This document shows positions 2,884-38,966 of a stretch of DNA of 46,081 bases, one piece after another (the first letter of the stretch is position 1; each line of letters starts with the position of its first letter). Origin of the DNA: a virus. The translations under genes were made by a program, and so were the position numbers. Where the stretch lies: the IMG/VR virus record IMGVR_UViG_3300043787_000071, positions 1-46,081 of that record; one strand, written 5' to 3'. The notes below the pieces were generated by a model. The model made no database searches. It was not told the DNA's origin and saw nothing but the letters and a program-made list of their open reading frames with translations.

Positions 2884-5800
2884 ATGGGCCAGAAGGGCGG
2901 GACCACTCAGCAAACGTCATCCAGCTCGGGGCCGCCTCCCCAGGTGATGGCTGAGTATCAGTCGCTGGTCGACCGCGCGACCAATGTCGCGAACCAGCCC
3001 TATCAACCCTACCAAGGCGAGCTGGTCGCCCCGCTGACGAGCCAGACGAACGCGGGGCTCGGGGGGATCAGCCAATACTCTGGCGCGGCGCAGCCCTATC
3101 TCGGCGCCGCCGGGGCGATGACGATGGGGGCGAGCGCTCCCGTCAATCCCTCACAATTTATGGGCATGGGTTCGCTGTCCCCCTTTATGAACCCGTACAC
3201 GTCCTCGGTCGTTGACACGACCCAGGCGGAAATGAATAATCAGAACCAACAACAGGCCCAATTCTTAAATTCCGCAAACATTTCTTCTGGCGCTTTCGGA
3301 GGCGACCGCGCTGGCATTGGTCAGGCGGTCCTGGCGAACCAGCAGCAGCTCGCCGAGGCGCCGACGATCGCGGGCCTGAATCAGGCGAACTTTTCACAAG
3401 CGATGCAGGACTGGACGGGCCAGCAAGGCGTCAACCTTGCGGCGCAGCAGGCCAATCGGGCCGCACAGCTCTCCGGCGCCGCCCAGCTCGGCCAGATCGG
3501 CTTGTCCGCGCAGGAAGCGGGCCTCCAGGGCTCACAGGCGGACATCCAAGCGGGCATGATCCCGCAGCAGGAACAGCAGGCGATCGATACCGCCGCCCAG
3601 CAGATGTATCAGCAGGGCCAAGCCTATCCGTTCACGACGACGGGTTGGTTGGGCAATATAATCGAGGGGGTCGGCGGCCAGTCCGGAGGCACGAGCCAGA
3701 CCACTTCACCGGGGCCGAACAGCATCACGCAGGGGCTCGGCGCGGCGACGCAAGGCATGGGCCTCCTCACCAGCCTCATGTCGCTCTCGGACGAGCGCGC
3801 GAAAGAGAACATCGAGGAGATCGGCCGGACATACGACGACCAGAAAATCTACCGCTACAATTTCCGTGGAGATCCTCGCACCCAGATCGGCCTCATCGCG
3901 CAGGAGGAGGCCTACCACGATCCTGGCAGCGTCCAGCGCATCGGCATGGGCGATCTCCTCGGCATCGATTACGAGCGCGCGACGGAAAGCGCGGCCGAGC
4001 GCGGCCACTTCGCCGACGGCGGCGCGCCAGACCAGGGGCTGCCTCCTGGCGGGATGACGCAGGGCGTGACGCAAGGCGCGGGTCAGCCCCGGCCGCCCCC
4101 GCAATCGATGTCCCCCGATATGTCGCTCATGTACATGGGCGATCCCAGCGCACGCGCGGGCATGGGCTCGTTCGCTCTCATGGGCGGGACCAATATCCAT
4201 CCCACGCCCGAAACGGCGCTCGCTCAGTCGAGCGTAGCCCCACCGCCCCAAGTCCCAGTGGGTGGAGGTGGGAGCAGCCTATCGCCTCTCGGCGGTCATT
4301 TGCCTTCGATCTTCCCGAGCGAACCTCAAAGCCAAGGGAGCGGCGCGTGGCGCGGCGGGCGGCAGGGCCGCCAGGGCGGCGGTCAAGCGCCCGTCGGCCC
4401 CAACGCCGCGATGGGCATGGCCACTCCTGGCTTCCAGCCGGGGCTCGATCCGTTGAGCGATATCGCGGGCGTCAACGAGGCGCTGTTCGGAGAGGAAACC
4501 GCAGGATCGAAAAACCCCTACACCGGCATCGATTTCGATCAGGCCATGGCGATCGGCGGCGGGCAGTGGATGCCGCCGCAGACCGGCGCGACGATGCCGG
4601 ACTTCGGGAACCTCCAGAATAGCCCGCAGTTCGGCGCGGCCGAGTCTTCGCTCGCGGGCGCCTTCGGCCCCGGCTACACGCCTGGATCGACGACGCTTGG
4701 CCCTGGCGGAGCTGCTCCGACCGTTCCTGCCGCCAATGCGCCTGGAGGCGGCGGCTTCATGGGCGCACCGGCGATGGGCGGGATTGTTGGCGGGGCGCCG
4801 AGTCCTGGCGCGATGGGCGCGGCTGGCGCGACGCAAGGCGGGCTGTCCCGCGACCAGCTCGCCAATGTTTTCGATGAGTATTTCGGCGGCGCTTCGCCTG
4901 CGCAGGCCGCGCCCTCTCCGCTGACGACCCCCGGCCACGCGCGCGGCGGGCGGATCGGGCGGCAGATTGGCGGGCCGACGGCGACTCTGGCGCTCCCCAT
5001 CAATCAAGGGCCATGGGGTGTTCAGAGCGGCGGGAGCGGCGGCGGGACCCAGCCAGCGGCGAATAGTGGCGGCGGGGGCGGGCCGTGGACGCAGATGATG
5101 GGCACCCCGAGCGCCATGAACCCGAGCGGCAACGCGGAAGTCGGCATGGCGAACTGGGCCGGGTTCTCAGGCCCGCAAGGCATGATGGAAGCGGACGCCG
5201 AAGGCTTTAGGGCCGACGGAGGAGGAGTGAACATGAACGGTCGCTCTGGCTTCCAACGCGGAGGCAGCCCCTTCACCACGTACCAGCCCACGGCGAACCC
5301 GGCGCGCAATCCGCCGACCTACACCGCGCTCGACCTCTCGCGCCTGTTCGGAGGCGGGCAGCAGCAAGCGCCTCGCGCCATCCAGATCCAGCGCCAGCTG
5401 GGGCAGGCGCGCGCCAAGGCGGCGGTCCAGCGGGGCCTCGTGCGGCCTCGCGTCATTGCGCACGACCCCGTGACCGGGCAGCCTCACGACATCACGCCGC
5501 TGCACGACCGACCGCCCTTCGGAAGCGGACCGTACAATCCTGGCGGGCAGCCGTATCGCCCAGAGGACGACCCGCGACCCCCTACCGGCGGGCCGCTCGA
5601 TCCGACCGGACCGACGGTGCGCTTTGGCGCGAAGAACCCCTTCCTCGGCCCGCAGCCGAAAGACCAAGAGGTGGGGCCGGAGAGCGCTGGCGAAGAGCCG
5701 CGTGGTCCTGGGCCGACGGGGCCGGAGCCTACACCGGGGCGCGCGCCGCCGCCGCCAGAGGAAAGCGGCGGATGGTTCAGCCAGCCCAAGCCGATCGAGG

Positions 5801-8800
5801 GGCTGCCTGCGGCCGGTGATCCGCGCTCGCTCGTGCCGCCGTCGATTGTCCGCCAAGCGTCGCCAGTGGGGCGCGCCATCGCCATCGGCAAGCAGCTCCT
5901 TTCGCCGAGCGCCACGTCGGGGCCGACAGGGGTTGAGCTGCCGCGCTCGCTCGGCCGCCGACCTAGCGGCCCCTCCGGGGCGCCGATCGCCGCGCCGCCG
6001 CCGCAGAGCCATGTCACCGATCTTGGCACCTGGGAGGGCGAGGGCGGCGCTCCGGCTCCTGCCGAGCATCACTGGGGGCCTTGGCACGCTGGCGGCACGC
6101 CGAGCGGTCCCATTATCGCGGGCCCGCCTCAGTCCCCCGGACCGCCTCCGGCCGATCTCGATGACGAGATCATGCGGATGGGCGACGAGGGGCCGCAGCT
6201 CTACCGAGGCGGGCGCATCGGCCGCGCCGATGGCGGCGATATCGACACGTCCTACGGGCCGCAACAGTCTGTGATCGACCTGACCGATGCGCAGTTCGGG
6301 AGCGCGCTTCAGGACGAGATGCGGTCCGCGCCTAGCGGCAGCCTCGACTGGATGAACGACCTGGGCAAGGGGCTGCCCACCGACTCCACTTGGAATGCGC
6401 TGGCCCCCAGCGGCGGCGGCGCTTCTCCGCAGCGCATCCAGATGAATCCGAACGCGGTCGCCCAAGCGCCGAGCTTCCAGGGCGCTGGCGGCGGAGGCGG
6501 CGGCCCGCACTTTACCCAGACCTCTTTGATGGGAGGGCCGCCGATCTCCGCGCTCGACCTCTCGGGCCACTACACGCCGACGACCGGCAACGCGCGCGGG
6601 GCGACCTACGTCCCTGGCGCTGGCGGGATCAGCCCGAACGCGCGCGCTCAAGCGCCGGAGCACCCTGCGATTGCGGTGGCGCGACATATCGCTGGCAGGG
6701 CGCACGCGGCAGGGTTCGCGGCGGGCCACGCGGCGGGGAGATTGTCGAAGGTCGACCCGAACATGGGGCCGATTCAGAGGGCATCCGACACGTCCTATGG
6801 GCCGCAGCTCCCCAGCGAATATGATGAGTACGGCTACGGCATTGGGGCCAAGCCTACTTACGGCAAGGCGATCCCCGGCAGCGAGGCTGGCGGCCAGGGC
6901 ACGTCGACCGGCTTCCAGGGAGGCGGCGGCGTCCTGGGCTCCTCGCCCGTGATGAACGCGGGCGGCTATACGCCGCAGGGCGAGGGCGTGACCGGCCAGA
7001 CATCGCAGGGCCGAGGCATGGGTTTCGGCGACCTGTTCGGCGGCGGCGAGCGCGCGGGCTTCGCCAGCGGCGGCCTGCCGTCGGTAAGCGATCCGTTCCT
7101 GGCGGAGATCACGGCCTCGATGCCGCAGGCCAGCGGCGGCGGCGGCGGGCATGGGCCTCCTGCGCCGCCTCCACCGGCTCCCCAGCCGCCCGCAGGCCAA
7201 GATCCAGGGAAAGGGCTCGGCGACAGCTTGGGCAAGCTCGGCGACGCGGTGAAGAAATTCTCGGGCCAGTCGGGCGGCCAGCAAACCGCGCCGGACGGCT
7301 CGCGGCCCTATTTGTCACCGGCCGATCAGTCTCAACTTCCGGGACTGGACTTCACTCCGGCCGACACGTCCGCGATCGACGCTGGGATGTCAGGCGATCT
7401 CTTCACGGGGGCGCTCGACCCATCGAACTTCGCTGACTCAGCCTTTTTTGCGACAGGAGGTGGCGTGGGGCTTGGCTCCCTGCGCGGTGGCTTTTCCGAT
7501 GGGGGCACGCCCGATGCGAGCGATGCGCCCTCTGGCTTCGATCTCGCCGTTACGGGCGCAGCAGCGCCGGTAGCCGCTCCGACTGGCGGTGGCGGCGGTG
7601 GCGGGCTTGCGACTGCGGCGATGCTCCGCGACCACTTGATGGGCACCTATGGGCTGACCAAAGACCAAGCCACCGGCTTCGCCGGGACGTTGGGCTACGA
7701 GAGCGGCGACTTCAAAACCATGCAGGAGCAAAACCCTGTCGGCGGCGGCAAGGGCGGTTGGGGCTGGGCGCAGTGGACCGGCCCGCGCCGGACTGAGTTT
7801 GAGAAATTCGCCAACGCGAACGGCCTCGATCCCTCCAGCCCCGCCGCCAATCAGGGCTTCTTGGATCACGAGCTACAGGGCAAATATTCCGGTGCGCTCG
7901 ATGAGATTCGAAAGACCGGCTCGGTCGCGGACGCGGCCAAGGCGACCTTGGTTCACTACGAGGGGATGCCTGACACGCCGGAGATTCGGGCGCAGGGCGG
8001 CATCCCTGCGACGCAGGGGCATATCGATCGCGCGCTCGCCTACAACCAAGCGCTGGGCGGCGCCAACGCCCCATCGAGCGATGCGCAGCCCGCCGAGGCG
8101 GACACGACCTCCTACGGCGGCGGCTTCCGGCTTCCCGGCCAGGGCGGCCCGCCTCCTGGCACGCTGGACAGGTCGAATCTCCAAGCGCCCACCATGGGCG
8201 ACGAGCTGAAGCACGATCCTGGCGGCTACCTGATGAGCGTCGGCGCGGCGATGATGGCCTCGCGCTCGCCCTGGCTCGGGGTGGGCATCGGCGAGGGGTT
8301 CGAGGCTGGGAACAAATACCTCCAGCAGCAAAAGGAGCTGGAGAAGGGCTGGGGCACCGCGCAGGCGCAGATCAACCAAATGGGGGCCGAGGCGCGCGAC
8401 AAGGGCGCGGATGCGGATCTGAAGGCGCAGCAGCTCCAGATGGCGGCGATGATGCAAAAGATCTTCGTCGAGAGGATGCGCCAGAGGGGCCTGCTCGGCG
8501 GCGGGAGCAGCGGAACGGCCTCGCCAGGGGCCACAGGAGGCCCAGGGCAGCCCTCGGGCGGTCTCACGCCTCTTACGGGCCTCGGCGGCGGGAAGGCTCC
8601 CAGCGGGGCTCCTGGCGATCCTAGCGCGCCATCTGACAGCGACGCGGCGCCGAGGATAGAGGACGACAAGCTCTACCAGCAGGCCCAGGATTTATACGCG
8701 CAGGCCAGGGACGCCGAACTCGACGACAGAATCATGGGCACGCATCAGGCCGAGGATTTGAGGGCGCAGGCTAAGGAGTTGAGCGACGCCGCGCAGAAGA

Positions 8801-9489
8801 ATTTCGAGAAAACCTCGGCCCCCTACACCGCGAAAATCGATGCGCAGAAGGCTGGCTTTACCGAGTACCAGAAGAGGGCTGACGAGTTCACTGGCGACTA
8901 TCAGAGCAATGTCGAGATGCTCACGCAGCTCGGGAAGATCTACAAGAGCTATCAATCGGGAACCGGCGCGGAAGACTTCGCAAACGTCCAAGGCCTCGCC
9001 GATCGTCTCGGCATCACTCTGCCGGACGGGTGGAACACGTCCGGTAAGGCCGGGTACGACGCCGCCATGAAGACGGCGGTCGATGCCGCCTTCCAAAAGA
9101 TGCAGTCCAGCGGCGCGAACAAGGCGCCGAGGTCCATCATGCAGGAGGCGCTGACGACTTCGCCGACGCCGACCAACGATCCATCAGCCAACTGGAAGAT
9201 CATCACCGAAACCCTGGCGCGGCTCAAGTACAGCAAGGAGATGATGGATTCCGTCATGTCGAGCGGCTCGCTCAACGTCACCAAGGCCGAGAACGCCTGG
9301 ATGAAGACGCACGGCTCGCTCGACCCCTATCGGAAAGAGGCGCGCAAGAACACGCCGCTGTTCATGGGCATGACACCGGGCAAATATCATACAGTCACCG
9401 GCTCCAATCTGGAGACGACCAAAGATGGTCGAACCATCGACCGAGAGAGCGGCAAGGTGTGGGACGCAAAAGGCAACCCGTTGAACTAA
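2884..9489 (+). CDS. giant internal virion protein with S74-like motif and tail-lysozyme domain
   Basis: 2201 residues. The first ~300 are rich in Q, A and G. Around residues 302-345 is SDERAKENIEEIG, then KIYRYNF and GLIAQE, the signature seen in Peptidase_S74-type intramolecular chaperone domains. About 1200 residues of G/P-rich sequence follow, with repeated RGGRIGR and FAxGG motifs. Near residues 1577-1720 a phage tail-lysozyme-like domain appears (ATGFAGTLGYESG, GWGWAQWTGPRR, FLDHELQG). The last ~480 residues are helical and charged. The likely role is an ejected protein that locally opens peptidoglycan. The interior position of the S74 motif is odd, since it is normally C-terminal. Confidence 0.8.
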   Translation: MGQKGGTTQQTSSSSGPPPQVMAEYQSLVDRATNVANQPYQPYQGELVAPLTSQTNAGLGGISQYSGAAQPYLGAAGAMTMGASAPVNPSQFMGMGSLSPFMNPYTSSVVDTTQAEMNNQNQQQAQFLNSANISSGAFGGDRAGIGQAVLANQQQLAEAPTIAGLNQANFSQAMQDWTGQQGVNLAAQQANRAAQLSGAAQLGQIGLSAQEAGLQGSQADIQAGMIPQQEQQAIDTAAQQMYQQGQAYPFTTTGWLGNIIEGVGGQSGGTSQTTSPGPNSITQGLGAATQGMGLLTSLMSLSDERAKENIEEIGRTYDDQKIYRYNFRGDPRTQIGLIAQEEAYHDPGSVQRIGMGDLLGIDYERATESAAERGHFADGGAPDQGLPPGGMTQGVTQGAGQPRPPPQSMSPDMSLMYMGDPSARAGMGSFALMGGTNIHPTPETALAQSSVAPPPQVPVGGGGSSLSPLGGHLPSIFPSEPQSQGSGAWRGGRQGRQGGGQAPVGPNAAMGMATPGFQPGLDPLSDIAGVNEALFGEETAGSKNPYTGIDFDQAMAIGGGQWMPPQTGATMPDFGNLQNSPQFGAAESSLAGAFGPGYTPGSTTLGPGGAAPTVPAANAPGGGGFMGAPAMGGIVGGAPSPGAMGAAGATQGGLSRDQLANVFDEYFGGASPAQAAPSPLTTPGHARGGRIGRQIGGPTATLALPINQGPWGVQSGGSGGGTQPAANSGGGGGPWTQMMGTPSAMNPSGNAEVGMANWAGFSGPQGMMEADAEGFRADGGGVNMNGRSGFQRGGSPFTTYQPTANPARNPPTYTALDLSRLFGGGQQQAPRAIQIQRQLGQARAKAAVQRGLVRPRVIAHDPVTGQPHDITPLHDRPPFGSGPYNPGGQPYRPEDDPRPPTGGPLDPTGPTVRFGAKNPFLGPQPKDQEVGPESAGEEPRGPGPTGPEPTPGRAPPPPEESGGWFSQPKPIEGLPAAGDPRSLVPPSIVRQASPVGRAIAIGKQLLSPSATSGPTGVELPRSLGRRPSGPSGAPIAAPPPQSHVTDLGTWEGEGGAPAPAEHHWGPWHAGGTPSGPIIAGPPQSPGPPPADLDDEIMRMGDEGPQLYRGGRIGRADGGDIDTSYGPQQSVIDLTDAQFGSALQDEMRSAPSGSLDWMNDLGKGLPTDSTWNALAPSGGGASPQRIQMNPNAVAQAPSFQGAGGGGGGPHFTQTSLMGGPPISALDLSGHYTPTTGNARGATYVPGAGGISPNARAQAPEHPAIAVARHIAGRAHAAGFAAGHAAGRLSKVDPNMGPIQRASDTSYGPQLPSEYDEYGYGIGAKPTYGKAIPGSEAGGQGTSTGFQGGGGVLGSSPVMNAGGYTPQGEGVTGQTSQGRGMGFGDLFGGGERAGFASGGLPSVSDPFLAEITASMPQASGGGGGHGPPAPPPPAPQPPAGQDPGKGLGDSLGKLGDAVKKFSGQSGGQQTAPDGSRPYLSPADQSQLPGLDFTPADTSAIDAGMSGDLFTGALDPSNFADSAFFATGGGVGLGSLRGGFSDGGTPDASDAPSGFDLAVTGAAAPVAAPTGGGGGGGLATAAMLRDHLMGTYGLTKDQATGFAGTLGYESGDFKTMQEQNPVGGGKGGWGWAQWTGPRRTEFEKFANANGLDPSSPAANQGFLDHELQGKYSGALDEIRKTGSVADAAKATLVHYEGMPDTPEIRAQGGIPATQGHIDRALAYNQALGGANAPSSDAQPAEADTTSYGGGFRLPGQGGPPPGTLDRSNLQAPTMGDELKHDPGGYLMSVGAAMMASRSPWLGVGIGEGFEAGNKYLQQQKELEKGWGTAQAQINQMGAEARDKGADADLKAQQLQMAAMMQKIFVERMRQRGLLGGGSSGTASPGATGGPGQPSGGLTPLTGLGGGKAPSGAPGDPSAPSDSDAAPRIEDDKLYQQAQDLYAQARDAELDDRIMGTHQAEDLRAQAKELSDAAQKNFEKTSAPYTAKIDAQKAGFTEYQKRADEFTGDYQSNVEMLTQLGKIYKSYQSGTGAEDFANVQGLADRLGITLPDGWNTSGKAGYDAAMKTAVDAAFQKMQSSGANKAPRSIMQEALTTSPTPTNDPSANWKIITETLARLKYSKEMMDSVMSSGSLNVTKAENAWMKTHGSLDPYRKEARKNTPLFMGMTPGKYHTVTGSNLETTKDGRTIDRESGKVWDAKGNPLN

Positions 9490-33722: not shown

Positions 33723-33806
33723 TCGACTCCAAAAAAAGAAAACCGGGCGGTAGGCGCGCCCGGTTCCTAGATAGCATCTCTTGCAAAACTTGTCACCATC
33801 GCGACG
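33723..33806 (-). promoter_or_regulatory. promoter and 5'-hairpin leader of the helicase gene
   Basis: Minus strand: CCGTCGCGATG box, GTGACA -35 (33796-33791), 17-base spacer holding the operator-like TTTGCAAGAGATGCTAT (33787-33771), TATCTA -10 (33773-33768), then hairpin AACCGGGCG/CGCCCGGTT (33741-33749 with 33757-33765) with GCCTAC in its loop, then GGAGTCGA (33730-33723) before ATG 33718. Predicted +1 falls in the first bases of the hairpin. Confidence 0.65.
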
Positions 33807-34922: not shown

Positions 34923-35129
34923 TCAATCCATCGCGGCGAGCTGGAGAGCGTCGCACATACGATCGAAGGCCTTCCACTCGTTGTCGTCGCGAGTGCACCG
35001 CCCTTGCTCGCTTCTCAGGCGGCCCAGCGCGTAGCCGACCTCCTCCGCCGAATAGAGTCCAGCGAGCGCGAGGGCGCGCAACGCCACGCGATACAGTTCA
35101 ACGGCGTCTTCGCTCGGCGCATCGATCAT
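34923..35129 (-). CDS. small phage protein, unknown
   Basis: 68 residues in overlap with the upstream stop. MIDAPSEDAVELYRVALRAL, ALAGLYSAEEVGYALGRLRS, then a charged C-terminus. Helical; unknown function. Confidence 0.55.
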   Translation of the reverse strand: MIDAPSEDAVELYRVALRALALAGLYSAEEVGYALGRLRSEQGRCTRDDNEWKAFDRMCDALQLAAMD

Positions 35130-35626
35130 GGCTGCCCCCGATTGAGAGCCGCCTTGCGCAGCTCGCCCATCTCGTCAGCAGGCTCCGGCGCGGGCTCGCC
35201 CTTTTCCTTGAGCAGCTGCCGGATATGGCGCGCCCAGCGCTTCTCGCAGCCGCGATAGGCGAGGCGGCCGACACGCTCGCGCTTGCCGCGCGCGTCGAGG
35301 TGATTCTCGATCGCGGAGTCGACGTACTTGCTCGGCAGCTCGACCAGCCATCCCGCCTCATCGAGCGGAATGATTCCGTGCTCCAGCGTGTCTATCCAGC
35401 CGCCGCTCTCGCAATTGACGACAACATGGTAGGCGATCGAACCGTCCAGGCGGATAGCGTCGAAGCACGCCATCCAATCGTCGTCGCCCAGCGTCCACGT
35501 CAGATGCCCGTAGGCGTCAAGCTTGCGCTCTTCTGAGCGCTCGGCGTCGAAGGCGTCCGCCTCCGCATAGGCGCGATCGAGCGCCGTCGCCTCCGCTAAC
35601 AATTCCTCGTCAGTCTTCCTTGCCAC
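35126..35626 (-). CDS. phage protein downstream of a hammerhead
   Basis: 166 residues from GTG 35626, directly after GGAGTCGAAA. An earlier ATG (35653) lies inside the ribozyme's CUGAUGAG and has no ribosome-binding site. N-terminal helical part (DEELLAEATALDRAYAEADA), then a beta-rich middle (HLTWTLGDDDWMACFDAIRL, YHVVVNCESGGWIDTLEHG). Function unknown. Confidence 0.6.
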   Translation of the reverse strand: MARKTDEELLAEATALDRAYAEADAFDAERSEERKLDAYGHLTWTLGDDDWMACFDAIRLDGSIAYHVVVNCESGGWIDTLEHGIIPLDEAGWLVELPSKYVDSAIENHLDARGKRERVGRLAYRGCEKRWARHIRQLLKEKGEPAPEPADEMGELRKAALNRGQP

Positions 35627-35645
35627 TTTCGACTCCTTCGATGTT

Positions 35646-35707
35646 AGGCTCATCAGGCGGCGCCTTACGCCGCGACACGAGAGGGAAACCCCCTCGCGTT
35701 TCGCCCT
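35646..35707 (-). ncRNA. type II hammerhead ribozyme, copy 3
   Basis: Minus strand, 12 bases after the ArdC-like stop. Core GAAA (35702-35699), stem III (11 bp with two G-U pairs, loop of three), GUC (35676-35674, cut after C), stem I GCGGC/GCCGC (35673-35669 with 35661-35657), CUGAUGA (35656-35650), stem II GCCU with GGGC (one G-U). All invariant core bases are present in the order III-I-CUGAUGA, i.e. open stem II. It lies nine bases before GGAGTCGA. Confidence 0.85.
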
Positions 35708-35718
35708 TCAGGATTGGA

Positions 35719-36630
35719 TTAGGCGGCCTCCAGGGCGGGTTCTTCCTCGTCCGCCTCTTCAGCCGCCACGGCGCCGCGCAGCCACTCCACAGCCTTGCTG
35801 GCCGCCGCTGCGGCGGTGATGATCGCGGTTTCTTTCTGCGACAGCAGCGAGACCCAGTGGTCGATGTACGCGGCCGGAGCCTCGCCCATGTCGATGCCCC
35901 ACTCCGCGCACACAAAAGCCGCCGTAAGCTCCGCGATCAGCTCCTCGGCCGCATATTCGCGGTCCCCAAACTTGCCCTTCAGCTCGCGGTTCAGGCGCGA
36001 CTTGTGGCCGGTCGCGTGGCCCATCTCGTGGAACAGAGTCGAGTAGAAGGCATGGGCGCCGACAAAGGCCTCGAACGCGGGCATGTCGATCGCGTCGAGC
36101 GCGGGCGCATACTGGGCGCGTGCGCCGCGTCCCTCGCGCACCGGAATCTCGGTCGCGGCAACGAAGGCGTCGAGATCAGCGTCGCGCCCGTCCGGGTTCA
36201 CTGGGGCATGCTGGCGAACCTCGCCAAGCCCCATGACCGAATCCGGCAGCCCCTCGCATTGGCTCACGTTGAAAACCGTGTAGCTGCGCAAGAAACCAAT
36301 GGTCTTTTTCTCGCCAGGATTCTTGTCGTCCTTCACGAGCATCCGCTTGACGAAGATAATGGCGACGCCGTGCTCGCCCTTTTTGACGTTTCCACCCGCA
36401 GCCTTCGCCTGTTTGAACGTCAACCAGCGCGGGCCGTAGCCCTCGACCTCGGCGACGCCCCAGAGCAACAGGACGTTGGCGCCCGAATAAAACCGGCCGG
36501 TCACCGCGTTGCGCGGCATCACGGAACCGTGAGCGCCGACGCGCTCGGACCAGGGCTTGCGCCAGGGCGCCACGCCGGTTTTCAGCTGGGCGAGGATCTT
36601 ATCGGTGATCTCGCGGTGCATGTCTCTCAT
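35719..36630 (-). CDS. ArdC-like anti-restriction protein with zincin motif
   Basis: 303 residues from ATG 36630. The N-terminal ~120 residues are the ArdC/DUF1738 ssDNA-binding part (DKILAQLKTGVAPWRKPWSE, PRNAVTGRFYSGANVLLLWG). The C-terminal part has HEMGHATGH near residue 202, the zincin metal motif, and later EELIAELTAAFVCAEWGI (third ligand Glu). Plasmid ArdC relatives shield incoming DNA from restriction. First gene of the promoter at 36.7 kb, followed by a hammerhead. Confidence 0.83.
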   Translation of the reverse strand: MRDMHREITDKILAQLKTGVAPWRKPWSERVGAHGSVMPRNAVTGRFYSGANVLLLWGVAEVEGYGPRWLTFKQAKAAGGNVKKGEHGVAIIFVKRMLVKDDKNPGEKKTIGFLRSYTVFNVSQCEGLPDSVMGLGEVRQHAPVNPDGRDADLDAFVAATEIPVREGRGARAQYAPALDAIDMPAFEAFVGAHAFYSTLFHEMGHATGHKSRLNRELKGKFGDREYAAEELIAELTAAFVCAEWGIDMGEAPAAYIDHWVSLLSQKETAIITAAAAASKAVEWLRGAVAAEEADEEEPALEAA

Positions 36631-36634
36631 GATT

Positions 36635-36720
36635 TCGACTCCAAAAGGAAAAGGGCGCGGTAGGCGCCGCGCCCTTCTCAAATAGCATCTTGTGCAAAAA
36701 CTGTCAAATAGACGACGGTT
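36635..36720 (-). promoter_or_regulatory. promoter and 5'-hairpin leader of the ArdC-like gene
   Basis: Minus strand: AAAAAACCGTCG box, TTGACA (36707-36702), 17-base spacer with TTTGCACAAGATGCTAT (36698-36682), TATTTG (36684-36679), hairpin AAGGGCGCGG/CCGCGCCCTT (36651-36660 with 36667-36676) with GCCTA in its loop, GGAGTCGA (36642-36635), ATG 36630. Predicted +1 near 36672, inside the hairpin's first strand. Confidence 0.7.
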
Positions 36721-36723
36721 TTT

Positions 36724-36882
36724 TCAGGTGGGACGTTTCGCCCTCTCAGCCGCCTCTCGCGCCGCTGCCTTCTCCTTGGTGCAGTTGCGAATATGCGCTG
36801 CTCGGCCCAGCGCATTGTTGGTGATACGGTCGCCGCAGACCGGGCAAAGCACGCGCCGCCAGCGAATCTTGCGCTTGCTCAT
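36724..36882 (-). CDS. 52-residue zinc-finger-like protein
   Basis: MSKRKIRWRRVLCPVCGDRI, then NALGRAAHIRNC gives C-C-H-C spacing for one zinc. A charged helix ends the chain. The start overlaps the tiny membrane peptide's stop (ATGA). Probably DNA or RNA binding, by type. Confidence 0.55.
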   Translation of the reverse strand: MSKRKIRWRRVLCPVCGDRITNNALGRAAHIRNCTKEKAAAREAAERAKRPT

Positions 36883-36947
36883 ATCTTGCCCCCCATCACC
36901 ATGAGGACCGCGAACAGGCACGCGAGGCCGGTGCAAAGCTCAGCCAC
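36879..36947 (-). CDS. 22-residue membrane microprotein
   Basis: GTG 36947 with AGGAGG six bases upstream (very strong site). Product: M-AELCTGLACLFAVLMVMGG, then KI and stop. It overlaps the upstream stop by eight bases and the downstream start by four, so it keeps the translation chain going. A single hydrophobic segment, possibly membrane-inserted or only a coupling peptide. Confidence 0.5.
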   Translation of the reverse strand: MAELCTGLACLFAVLMVMGGKI

Positions 36948-37167
36948 GGCGCACCTCCTCGTCTTGAACGAGGATGCCCAGCTCGCGAAACGAAGCCTCG
37001 ACTTGCAGCCGACAGGCGGCCCGCTCGGCCGATCGGCGCGAGGTAAACGTCTTCCCCTCGCGCATCTCGATCTCGCAGCCGTCGCGCAGGAAAAGCGCAT
37101 AGCGCCGCTCGCCCTTTTGCGGGTAGCGCGGATTCAGGTCCGCATAGACCTTGAGGCGGCACGTCAC
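36940..37167 (-). CDS. small phage protein, unknown
   Basis: 75 residues. MTCRLKVYADLNPRYPQKGE, then RRYALFLRDGCEIEMREGKT and AACRLQVEASFRELGIL. Alpha/beta. Overlaps neighbours by four and eight bases. No family recognised. Confidence 0.55.
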   Translation of the reverse strand: MTCRLKVYADLNPRYPQKGERRYALFLRDGCEIEMREGKTFTSRRSAERAACRLQVEASFRELGILVQDEEVRRG

Positions 37168-37817
37168 GATAGCGCCTTGCGAAAGAGCGTCACCGCCTCG
37201 GCGATCGTGACCAGCCGCCCATCAATCCAAACATGGCTGACAGGTTCAGTGGACTCGCCCGCGCGCCGGTTCTCAGCGCCGCGCTGGCAGCCCATCCAGC
37301 GGCCCTGGAGATTCTCGGCGTAGGCGAGCGCCTCGTCGGGCGTGGCGAAGCGCAGACCATTGCCGGTCCAGGCCGACTCGCCAACGCCCTTGATCTCGGG
37401 CACGTAGCTCACGGGCTTGGGCGCCAGCGTCCGCTCGATGCTGCCCCAGGGCGCAGCGTCATAGTCCGCCCCCTGGTGCGGCAGGCGCACCGAAAGGTGA
37501 GAGGCAACTCGACGCGCCTCGGAGGCCTTCCAGCCCCCATGCTCGCAGGACTGGTAGATGTAGCAGTCGACGATCTTCCCGGCCGCGCCCGCGCTCAGCG
37601 TCAGCGGCTCATGGCGATACGCCACAAGGTCCGCGAAATAGGCGGCGTGCTCGTCAGCGTGGCGCTTGGGCATGTCGTAGAGGTGGGCGACGCTCTTGAT
37701 GTTCTCTTCCCAGAGCAACCGCCCCAGGAGGTTCGCAGGCCGGGTTGAGACGCCCAATTCGAGCGCAATGGTCACGAGCGCGTCGATATCGCGCTTGGAC
37801 ACAACGAAAGCAGACAT
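37164..37817 (-). CDS. phage/plasmid protein of unknown function
   Basis: 217 residues from ATG 37817, preceded by GAAGGAGTCGAATCC. N-terminal MSAFVVSKRDIDALVTIALE is a pattern I recall from other phage and plasmid proteins without known role. The middle holds KIVDCYIYQSCEHGGWKASE, and the C-terminus PVSHVWIDGRLVTIAEAVTL. It follows the second hammerhead. Confidence 0.6.
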   Translation of the reverse strand: MSAFVVSKRDIDALVTIALELGVSTRPANLLGRLLWEENIKSVAHLYDMPKRHADEHAAYFADLVAYRHEPLTLSAGAAGKIVDCYIYQSCEHGGWKASEARRVASHLSVRLPHQGADYDAAPWGSIERTLAPKPVSYVPEIKGVGESAWTGNGLRFATPDEALAYAENLQGRWMGCQRGAENRRAGESTEPVSHVWIDGRLVTIAEAVTLFRKALS

Positions 37818-37846
37818 GGATTCGACTCCTTCAGATTGCTGGTGAG

Positions 37847-37915
37847 TAGGCTCATCAGGCGGCATCCCATTGCCGCGACGCAGGAGGCCCAGGACAGGCC
37901 TCCGCGTTTCGCCTT
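37847..37915 (-). ncRNA. type II hammerhead ribozyme, copy 2
   Basis: Minus strand, three bases after stop TAG. GAAA (37910-37907), stem III (ACGC and GGAGGCC pairing, one bulged T, loop TGTCCTG), GUC (37879-37877), stem I GCGGC/GCCGC (37876-37872 with 37863-37859, eight-base loop), CUGAUGA (37858-37852), stem II GCCU/AGGC, perfect. GCCTAC follows, then GGAGTCGA about 17 bases on. Confidence 0.87.
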
Positions 37916-37918
37916 GGT

Positions 37919-38188
37919 CTAGCGGACCTTGTCGCCGCCAAACTCCATGACGTGCAGCCCCAGCGCTTCGAGATCGCGCTCGATCGTCTCCAGGGCGGCC
38001 ATGCGGGCGCGATGCTCAGCCATCGCTTCATTGGTCGCGCTGCCCTCTTGCAGGTAGTAGTCGCGGCCATTCGGGGCACACTGGGCGAGCGCCCGCTGGG
38101 CGTCGCGTATCGCCTCGTGCGCGTTGCGGTAGCCGTCGAAGAGGGACTGAGCGTCAGTCCCGTTCAGGTGGATGGATGGCAGTCTCAT
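37919..38188 (-). CDS. small helical phage protein
   Basis: 89 residues from ATG 38188 (ATGA overlap). NGTDAQSLFDGYRNAHEAIR, DAQRALAQCAPNGRDYYLQE, MAALETIERDLEALGLHVME. A two-helix pattern of small phage proteins. Unknown function. Confidence 0.6.
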   Translation of the reverse strand: MRLPSIHLNGTDAQSLFDGYRNAHEAIRDAQRALAQCAPNGRDYYLQEGSATNEAMAEHRARMAALETIERDLEALGLHVMEFGGDKVR

Positions 38189-38541
38189 CGGCCGCTCTCC
38201 CGGTTCGACTTGTCGATGGCGAGACGGTCCCAAGCCGCGTCGATGCGGCGCGCGTTCTCGATGCGGCGCGCGTTCTCGCTGCGGCGGGTCTCCGTCGCCT
38301 GCTTCAGGACGCCCAGATAGCGGCCATGGCTGCGCGCCTCTGCGAGAGCCTCGGCCGCCGTCCGATAGATGCTGTAACCGTGCGTCTGCCAGTCGACGTT
38401 GCAGCCCTCTCGGGTCAGCTCGCGCGCGGTCTCCTCGGCAACATCTTTGCCAAGGATGTTGAGCTTCAGGCTGCCCTCGACGCGGGGCACGCCAGGATAG
38501 GTCACGGTCAGAATGTAGAGGGCAGGCTTTTTGCGGGACAT
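38185..38541 (-). CDS. small phage protein with ENARRI repeat
   Basis: 118 residues. MSRKKPALYILTVTYPGVPR, then KDVAEETARELTREGCNVDW and a tandem SENARRI ENARRI near the C-terminus (from an 18-base tandem repeat near 38250-38285). It follows hammerhead copy 1 and GGAGTCGAAGACC. No family recognised. Confidence 0.6.
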   Translation of the reverse strand: MSRKKPALYILTVTYPGVPRVEGSLKLNILGKDVAEETARELTREGCNVDWQTHGYSIYRTAAEALAEARSHGRYLGVLKQATETRRSENARRIENARRIDAAWDRLAIDKSNRESGR

Positions 38542-38560
38542 GGTCTTCGACTCCAGTTGG

Positions 38561-38619
38561 TAGGCTCATCAGTGGCGGCCAAACCGCCAGACGCGGGGCC
38601 AGAGCCCGCGTTTCGCCTT
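38561..38619 (-). ncRNA. type II hammerhead ribozyme, copy 1
   Basis: Minus strand, starting three bases after stop TAA. GAAA (38614-38611), stem III 7 bp (38605-38611 with 38591-38597), GUC (38592-38590, cut after C), stem I UGGCGG/CCGCCA (38589-38584 with 38578-38573, five-base loop), CUGAUGA (38572-38566), stem II GCCU/AGGC, perfect. Every invariant core base is present. GCCTAC then GGAGTCGA follow. Confidence 0.9.
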
Positions 38620-38622
38620 GGG

Positions 38623-38862
38623 TTAGCGGCTGCGATCCACCGCCGGGAGCGGCAGGCGCTCAAGGTCAGCGGAAAGCTCCGTGAGCGTTGCCGCGCGCGG
38701 CCAATGCGTGGCAATCGGCCAATCCTCGGGCTTCGCGAGGCGCGGAATCGCCTCCCAACCGCCCGCGCCATGCTTGCGCACGCGGAAGACAAAACCGCCG
38801 CCATAGCCGACATATTCGCGCGGCCGGAACGCGGACTTCTCGATGTTGTGAAGGTATTTCAT
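38623..38862 (-). CDS. first gene of the long minus-strand operon, unknown
   Basis: 79 residues. MKYLHNIEKSAFRPREYVGY, then GGFVFRVRKHGAGGWEAIPR. A beta-rich small protein, followed by hammerhead copy 1. The start follows CTGGAGTCGAACCC. Function unknown. Confidence 0.6.
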   Translation of the reverse strand: MKYLHNIEKSAFRPREYVGYGGGFVFRVRKHGAGGWEAIPRLAKPEDWPIATHWPRAATLTELSADLERLPLPAVDRSR

Positions 38863-38866
38863 GGGT

Positions 38867-38966
38867 TCGACTCCAGTGTGTTTTCGGGCGCCGTAGGCAA
38901 GCGCCTGTCCCTGTAAATAAGCATTGCGGGACGCGCGGTCAAGACGTTTTCGTCGCCATCGCGACG
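38867..38966 (-). promoter_or_regulatory. promoter and 5'-hairpin leader of the long minus-strand operon
   Basis: Minus strand: inverted repeat CGTCGC-GATG-GCGACG (38966-38951), TTGACC (38942-38937), 17-base spacer, TATTTA (38919-38914), predicted +1 near 38907, hairpin GGCGC/GCGCC (38901-38905 with 38887-38891) with GCCTAC in the loop, GGAGTCGA (38874-38867). Unlike the other two promoters of this design it lacks a clear TTTGCAC operator in its spacer. Confidence 0.65.

Follow-up and report, generated by a model that had tools for sequence, protein, structure and literature searches.

We analysed the IMG/VR virus record IMGVR_UViG_3300043787_000071 over its whole length of 46,081 nucleotides (nt), referred to here as the window. 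On the minus strand of its early region lie three elements with the complete core of a hammerhead ribozyme, which probably act as compact self-cleaving RNAs of type II in the linkers between genes. All three run in the same order, namely a stem II strand, GAAA, the stem III hairpin, UC, the stem I hairpin, CUGAUGA and the other stem II strand. Copy 1 (38561..38619), a compact element in type II order, consists of an A (38619), AGGC (38618-38615), GAAA (38614-38611), stem III (38610-38592), UC (38591-38590), stem I with the loop UUUGG (38589-38573), CUGAUGA (38572-38566) and GCCU (38565-38562); the predicted cut between 38590 and 38589 would leave a 5′ leader of 48 nt on the cut mRNA. The corresponding parts of copy 2 (37847..37915) are A (37915), AGGC (37914-37911), GAAA (37910-37907), a stem III with one bulged U (37906-37879), UC (37878-37877), stem I with the loop AUGGGA, which lacks the usual first U (37876-37859), CUGAUGA (37858-37852) and GCCU (37851-37848), with a predicted cut between 37877 and 37876 and a leader of 59 nt. 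Copy 3 (35645..35707, core parts 35646-35707) has A (35707), GGGC (35706-35703), GAAA (35702-35699), stem III (35698-35676), UC (35675-35674), stem I with the loop UAAGG (35673-35657), CUGAUGA (35656-35650) and GCCU (35649-35646), and is predicted to be cut between 35674 and 35673, 47 nt ahead of a GTG start at 35626.

The hammerhead core (CUGANGA, GAAA and A-U-H at the cut site) is complete in each copy, and each shows the type II permutation, with stems I and III closed by loops and stem II open. The minimum-energy fold is a three-way junction in all three cases (z −1.9, −3.4 and −3.5). A gapped pattern of the core matches three times in the record and never in a reversed control; the word TGGAGTCGAA by itself occurs in the window at chance-level frequency. 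The stop codon of the upstream reading frame ends 4, 4 and 12 nt ahead of stem II in copies 1, 2 and 3, respectively. The first-pass annotation of this DNA had proposed three type II hammerheads at these places on the minus strand, each starting directly behind a stop codon, with expected cuts following 38590, 37877 and 35674; the elements, the closeness to a stop and the cut positions predicted here all agree with it. Core, topology and covariation, together with a trained model, give strong support to the type II identity itself.

The copies of the window belong to a distinct structural class. IMG/VR was scanned for GGCGAAAC, GTC and CTGATGAGCC with free gaps between them, and later for a fixed compact form. 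The loci were read with a structural descriptor of our own; in 1.92 Mb of fetched phage DNA it located 343 copies, whereas the reversed sequence gave none. The length of the stem I hairpin falls into two classes, 17-18 nt or 21-23 nt with few between, which occur together in merely 2 of 159 loci. The long class has a stem II of 3 base pairs (bp) and a pseudoknot between loop I and the tail, like the published consensus. The compact class is characterised by a 6-bp stem I, a loop of 5-6 nt of the form UNNN(N)G, a 4-bp stem II and an A directly 5′ of stem II. Of 145 compact copies, 142 have this flanking A, 141 the first U of loop I (as do 55 of 58 from a set fetched without requiring it) and 144 UC at the cut site. 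Copies 1 and 3 show every feature of the class, and copy 2 has an A for the first loop U, from which we suppose that it is possibly the slowest cutter of the three. Pairing between loop I and the tail exceeds the top of 500 shuffled tails in the long class (4.50 vs 3.54), whereas the compact class shows no excess (2.57 vs 2.56). A pseudoknot in the window copies was rejected for this reason: UUGG/CCAA in copy 1 and UGGG/CUCA in copy 2 could pair, but the class does no better than shuffles. The compact pattern was found in 101 stretches of viral contigs and in 7 within 257 Gb of genomes. Compact hammerheads were also seen in two Synergistaceae assemblies (metagenome-assembled genomes; L201 and L202), distant from the other hosts.

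Covariation over a wide set bears out the earlier proposal that pairing is kept while stem sequences differ. In an alignment of 47 compact copies, none of them from the window, 99.4% of cells pair, compared with 64% after shuffling and at most 45% when the strands are slid, and double changes occur at 13 of the 15 pairs. Since this set had been pre-filtered for pairing, we also examined raw pattern matches without the filter, where all six stem I pairs are present in 86 of 88 sequences, against 6% with shuffled arms. A covariance model trained on the same 47 phage hammerheads recovers exactly the three copies in the window, with 65.8 bits for copy 1 (E-value 2.5e-17), 55.7 for copy 3 (2.4e-14) and 43.7 for copy 2 (9.1e-11), and the next best match in the window has an E-value of 0.36. 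Some of the training copies come from phages related to that of the window (L028, L156 and L167), so the independence of the model is good rather than total.

The existing Rfam family performs differently. At the gathering score Rfam 15 has no match in the window, and a permissive search with RF02276 (Hammerhead_II) gave 35.4, 21.9 and 21.4 bits for copies 1, 2 and 3, respectively, against a cut-off of 37; a type II match above threshold, which the first-pass annotation had set as a test, was thus not obtained. The scores are low because RF02276 fits the pseudoknotted class, outside which the window copies lie. On sampled loci, the Rfam threshold recovered 37 of 48 long pseudoknotted copies and 2 of 30 compact ones (overlaps counted by hand), and no match to RF02276 was found in 14 control genomes. 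Since the Rfam model overlooks the compact class, these ribozymes are undercounted among phages.

Position statistics were collected for the 137 compact copies with enough flanking sequence. The upstream frame stops between −15 and +5 of the ribozyme in 76% (7% at random), a ribosome-binding site with a start codon follows 10-40 nt past the ribozyme in 77% (10% at random), and both hold in 61% (1% at random). In 47 of the 137 copies the end of the stop codon is the first base of stem II, and no stop codon was counted at +2 to +12 inside these ribozymes. The downstream start codon is ATG in 110 of 115 cases, and the ribozymes lie in coding-strand orientation in 12 of 12 related contigs. A single downstream gene family as the common partner was rejected: the genes mostly encode small uncharacterised proteins; of 100, no more than 9 belong to any one PHROG, and two are ocr-like anti-restriction proteins.

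In the window, copy 1 is preceded by a 79-amino-acid (aa) open reading frame (ORF; 38623..38862, minus strand), whose TAA stop lies 4 nt before stem II and which has a 94% identical homologue in contig L156. It is followed by a 118-aa ORF (38185..38541, minus) with the ribosome-binding site GGAGUCGAA just past the ribozyme; this ORF had no match in protein family searches. Next comes an 89-aa ORF (37919..38188, minus) upstream of copy 2, held within the 713-nt segment 38589-37877 that the predicted cuts 1 and 2 would release. The 217-aa ORF downstream of copy 2 (37164..37817, minus) has homologues in L133 and L070, which keep a hammerhead directly before them. Upstream of copy 3 lies an ArdC-like anti-restriction gene (35719..36630, minus; Pfam ArdcN 1.1e-35 and MPTase-PolyVal 7e-41, phrog_7245 1.3e-81), and downstream a 166-aa ORF with a GTG start (35126..35626, minus), whose homologue in L179 is also preceded by a hammerhead. 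Beyond the region of ArdC and copy 3 follows a gene for an SNF2-type helicase, and the window further encodes a terminase, an integrase/invertase-like recombinase, RecE-like and RecT-like proteins, a primase and a helicase. Its content of guanine and cytosine (GC) is 64%, and no tRNA genes were found in it. On the plus strand, 2884-9489 encodes a 2201-aa protein that matches a DNA-ejection protein at its N-terminus and, around residue 1650, has a weak endolysin-like match.

In the stretch that separates copies 2 and 3, immediately upstream of the ArdC gene, we found a promoter-like sequence, TTGACA-N17-TATTTG, followed by a hairpin (36648..36706, minus). The hairpin (36648-36679) is GC-rich with a CGCCUA loop and a T-rich tail, after which comes a ribosome-binding site. 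The same leader module precedes the SNF2 gene (33739-33800, minus); a version ahead of the 79-aa gene (38887-38935, minus) has a weaker stem and lacks the T tail. The consensus of the module is TTGACR-N17-TATNTN, directly after which come a hairpin that carries GCCUA in its loop, then GGAGTCGA and the start codon. The module recurs with changed yet pairing stems in L156, L179, L167, L028, L133, L070, L157, L180 and L015. A simple sigma-70 scan did not list these promoters, so the promoter-like sites rest on comparative evidence. The conserved leader may protect 5′ ends or serve as an anti-termination site. The pentamer GCCUA occurs both in the tail of compact ribozymes and in the leader hairpin loop of the same phage; the loop GCCU could pair with the AGGC of the ribozyme, which may be coincidence. 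With a promoter-like site and a terminator-like hairpin between copies 2 and 3, a single transcript across them is doubtful, and the single polycistronic unit assumed by the first-pass annotation is not supported. Copies 1 and 2 probably share one transcript and copy 3 may lie on a separate one.

Twelve related contigs share portions of the early region and carry one to five ribozymes each. A named close relative was sought and rejected: the phage collection gave no nucleotide match, and terminase identity reached no more than about 42% across most of the length. A search of 397 genomes from the order to which Microvirga lupini belongs showed compact copies in 5, which makes an alphaproteobacterium a plausible host. 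The first-pass annotation had considered three copies unusual. However, among the matches listed and the loci read with the descriptor, many phage contigs have 4 to 10 type II hammerheads and several IMG/VR contigs have 4-7, while Streptomyces phage R4 has nine and phage Spernnie eight long-class copies above the Rfam threshold, so that three copies per phage are ordinary. The Pelagibacter phage HTVC168P carries one copy of the compact class. Arrays of at least 4 to 7 long-class copies within less than 15 kb were noted in L023, L073, L009, L011, L074, L076 and others. In R4 (L241, NC_019414), type II hammerheads coincide with the annotated tiny genes gp60.1, gp67.1 and gp75.1 (2763-2846, 5126-5218 and 8074-8175), which are probably not genes, and ribozymes also overlap gp72, gp76 and gp81 at their annotated 5′ ends.

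Taken together, the three elements are best explained as cis-acting, self-cleaving compact type II hammerheads that sit in the linkers between stop codon and ribosome-binding site and split the early mRNA between cistrons, a reading to which we assign a probability of roughly 0.7. It draws on sequence, structure, covariation, position and conservation, and from these we infer cleavage, a tertiary contact, protection of ends and a benefit to the phage. When the early region is transcribed, the RNA would fold after the end of the upstream reading frame and cut itself after GUC co-transcriptionally. The upstream mRNA would then end in the stem III hairpin with a 2′,3′-cyclic phosphate, and the downstream mRNA would start with a 5′-OH and the stem I hairpin, 47-59 nt ahead of the start codon. 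The early message would be split into pieces with hairpin-protected ends, whose decay and expression could differ. Messages derived from the promoters of these phages also begin with a hairpin, which fits the predicted hairpin start of the cut mRNA.

Several points weigh against such cleavage in service of the phage. Some hammerheads predicted by bioinformatics have proved inactive and not all need have a function (Perreault et al., PMC3088659), copy 2 departs from the consensus in the first base of loop I, and all three copies score below the RF02276 cut-off. The phenotype is not evident, as no single gene family follows the ribozymes. Moreover, hammerheads of types I and III occur commonly in IMG/VR too, with 84 and 36 sampled matches, respectively (e.g. 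L245 onward), and likewise lie between phage genes. A reason peculiar to type II, namely that it places a hairpin at both new ends, was therefore rejected as a necessary one; such a benefit is not required and cannot be the sole reason. A further, tentative idea, which we consider possible yet doubtful, is that the ribozymes act as translation-gated switches. Where the stop codon is fused to the first ribozyme strand, a terminating ribosome would cover the core and delay cutting; cleavage would then report translation of the upstream cistron, and in phage early operons mRNA splitting would be tied to translation.

Among the explanations that compete with mRNA splitting, the one with the most in its favour, though still unlikely, is that the linkers are kept partly as short homologous joints for the swapping of early genes, with RNA cutting secondary or merely conserving the joint. 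A comparison of 25 copies from 13 related contigs gave 41 pairs with an identity of 85% or more in one half; for 32 of the 41, homology was undetectable in the 250-nt flanks on both sides. This indicates that genes are swapped around the linkers or that the linkers move. Copy 1 and its counterpart in L167 are 87%/98% alike between unrelated flanking genes, the 3′ half of copy 1 equals that of L133 over 47 nt while stem III differs, and the phage of the window encodes RecE-like and RecT-like proteins. A recombination joint would, however, have no need of double changes that preserve pairing, and would even be weakened by them, and the tight spacing of stop codon, ribozyme and ribosome-binding site across many unrelated phages favours a function in RNA. 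Less probable still is that the elements are folded leader and trailer hairpins which insulate translation or keep RNA ends protected and are cleaved weakly or not at all in vivo. The promoter leaders of the same phages, which start with a hairpin before the same ribosome-binding site GGAGTCGA, suggest that a hairpin leader is useful by itself, and the deviating copy 2 would suit an uncut hairpin. A plain hairpin, though, has no use for a catalytic core, and the UC of the cut site is almost invariant in the compact class; while our descriptor requires most of the core, the flanking A and the loop U are conserved without being required.

We give very little credence to the proposal that the pieces between ribozymes become circular RNAs or spliced products through reverse ligation. 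Hammerheads do serve circular RNAs elsewhere (PMC7761336), and cuts 1 and 2 would yield a 713-nt piece for this purpose. Against this, the type II ends on one piece would come from two ribozymes with non-matching stems, and Perreault et al. (PMC3088659) sought spliced or circular products and found none. In a genome as GC-rich as this one (64%), single core words do arise by chance, but a chance or compositional origin of the whole elements is refuted by the empty reversed controls over 1.92 Mb, the 47-copy covariation, the E-values of the covariance model, the unfiltered stem I pairing and the absence of RF02276 from all 14 control genomes, and we regard its probability as close to nil.

How the compact class would dock stems I and II in place of the pseudoknot is suggested by crystal structures, in which one tertiary pair is common to both natural hammerhead classes, a Hoogsteen contact between an A, the last residue of stem-loop II, and a U that neighbours stem I residue 1.6 (PMC2553840). 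In the compact class, stem I has six pairs with a U straight after them, and an A occupies the position of the last loop II base. Of 36 phage type III hammerheads fetched separately, 31 have a U behind the six pairs and 32 a loop II that ends in A. The letters of the A-U contact of types I and III are thus conserved in the compact class as well as in the phage type III copies. Judged by these letters, the compact class appears to dock through the A-U contact instead of the loop I-tail pseudoknot, and it resembles a type III hammerhead in which loop II has been opened and stem III closed. The tertiary contact known from viroid-type hammerheads would then persist through circular permutation.

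The function of hammerheads in bacteria and phages is described as an open question in published papers. The compact class offers a structurally distinct and nearly phage-only handle on it, and the strict order of stop codon, ribozyme, ribosome-binding site and start codon limits the possible functions. Cultured phages with type II elements, namely R4 on S. coelicolor A3(2), Spernnie and HTVC168P, make the purpose testable. Aminoglycosides are ligands of hammerhead ribozymes, and they also block phage infection at an early stage (PMC9239200). Perreault et al. (2011, PMC3088659) described hammerheads of type II and how they cluster in prophages, together with an array near ardA and the RNA-processing hypothesis, and showed that published arrays cleave in vitro and one of them in E. 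coli. The open-access literature, to which our search was confined for the most part since most subscription papers lay outside it, yielded no account of the compact class or its signature, nor any mention of its low recall by Rfam or of the fusion to a stop codon. We consider the class and its spacing rules new here, the arrays and the processing hypothesis dating from 2011; as many hammerheads without a pseudoknot were reported in that study (PMC3088659), single compact examples may be in its data.

With published type II hammerheads (PMC3088659; RF02276), the elements of the window share the core, the circular permutation, the occurrence as several intergenic copies in phage and the proposed role in cutting polycistronic RNA. 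They differ from the published consensus, which has the loop I-tail pseudoknot, in lacking it, in their 4-bp stem II with a flanking A, in the short UNNNG loop and in scoring below the Rfam threshold. To type III, known from satellite RNAs and phages (the class of the satellite RNA of tobacco ringspot virus, sTRSV), they are alike in the 6-bp stem I followed by U, the 4-bp stem II and the A before the GAAA-side strand (PMC2553840). Unlike type III, they have stem II open and stem III closed, the shared elements being circularly permuted, and they reside in DNA phages and not in circular RNAs. The hepatitis delta virus (HDV)-like theta ribozymes of gut phages are another self-cleaving RNA type in phage genomes (PMC10879173), with a different fold and a context tied to tRNA-based recoding; the window has no tRNA. 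In the Streptomyces phages R4 and Spernnie, as in the window, type II ribozymes run between early genes on the coding strand, although those arrays consist of the long pseudoknotted class and are much larger. Finally, the triple array of Agrobacterium tumefaciens lies around ardA and that of the window includes an ArdC-like gene, so that an anti-restriction gene is near in both.

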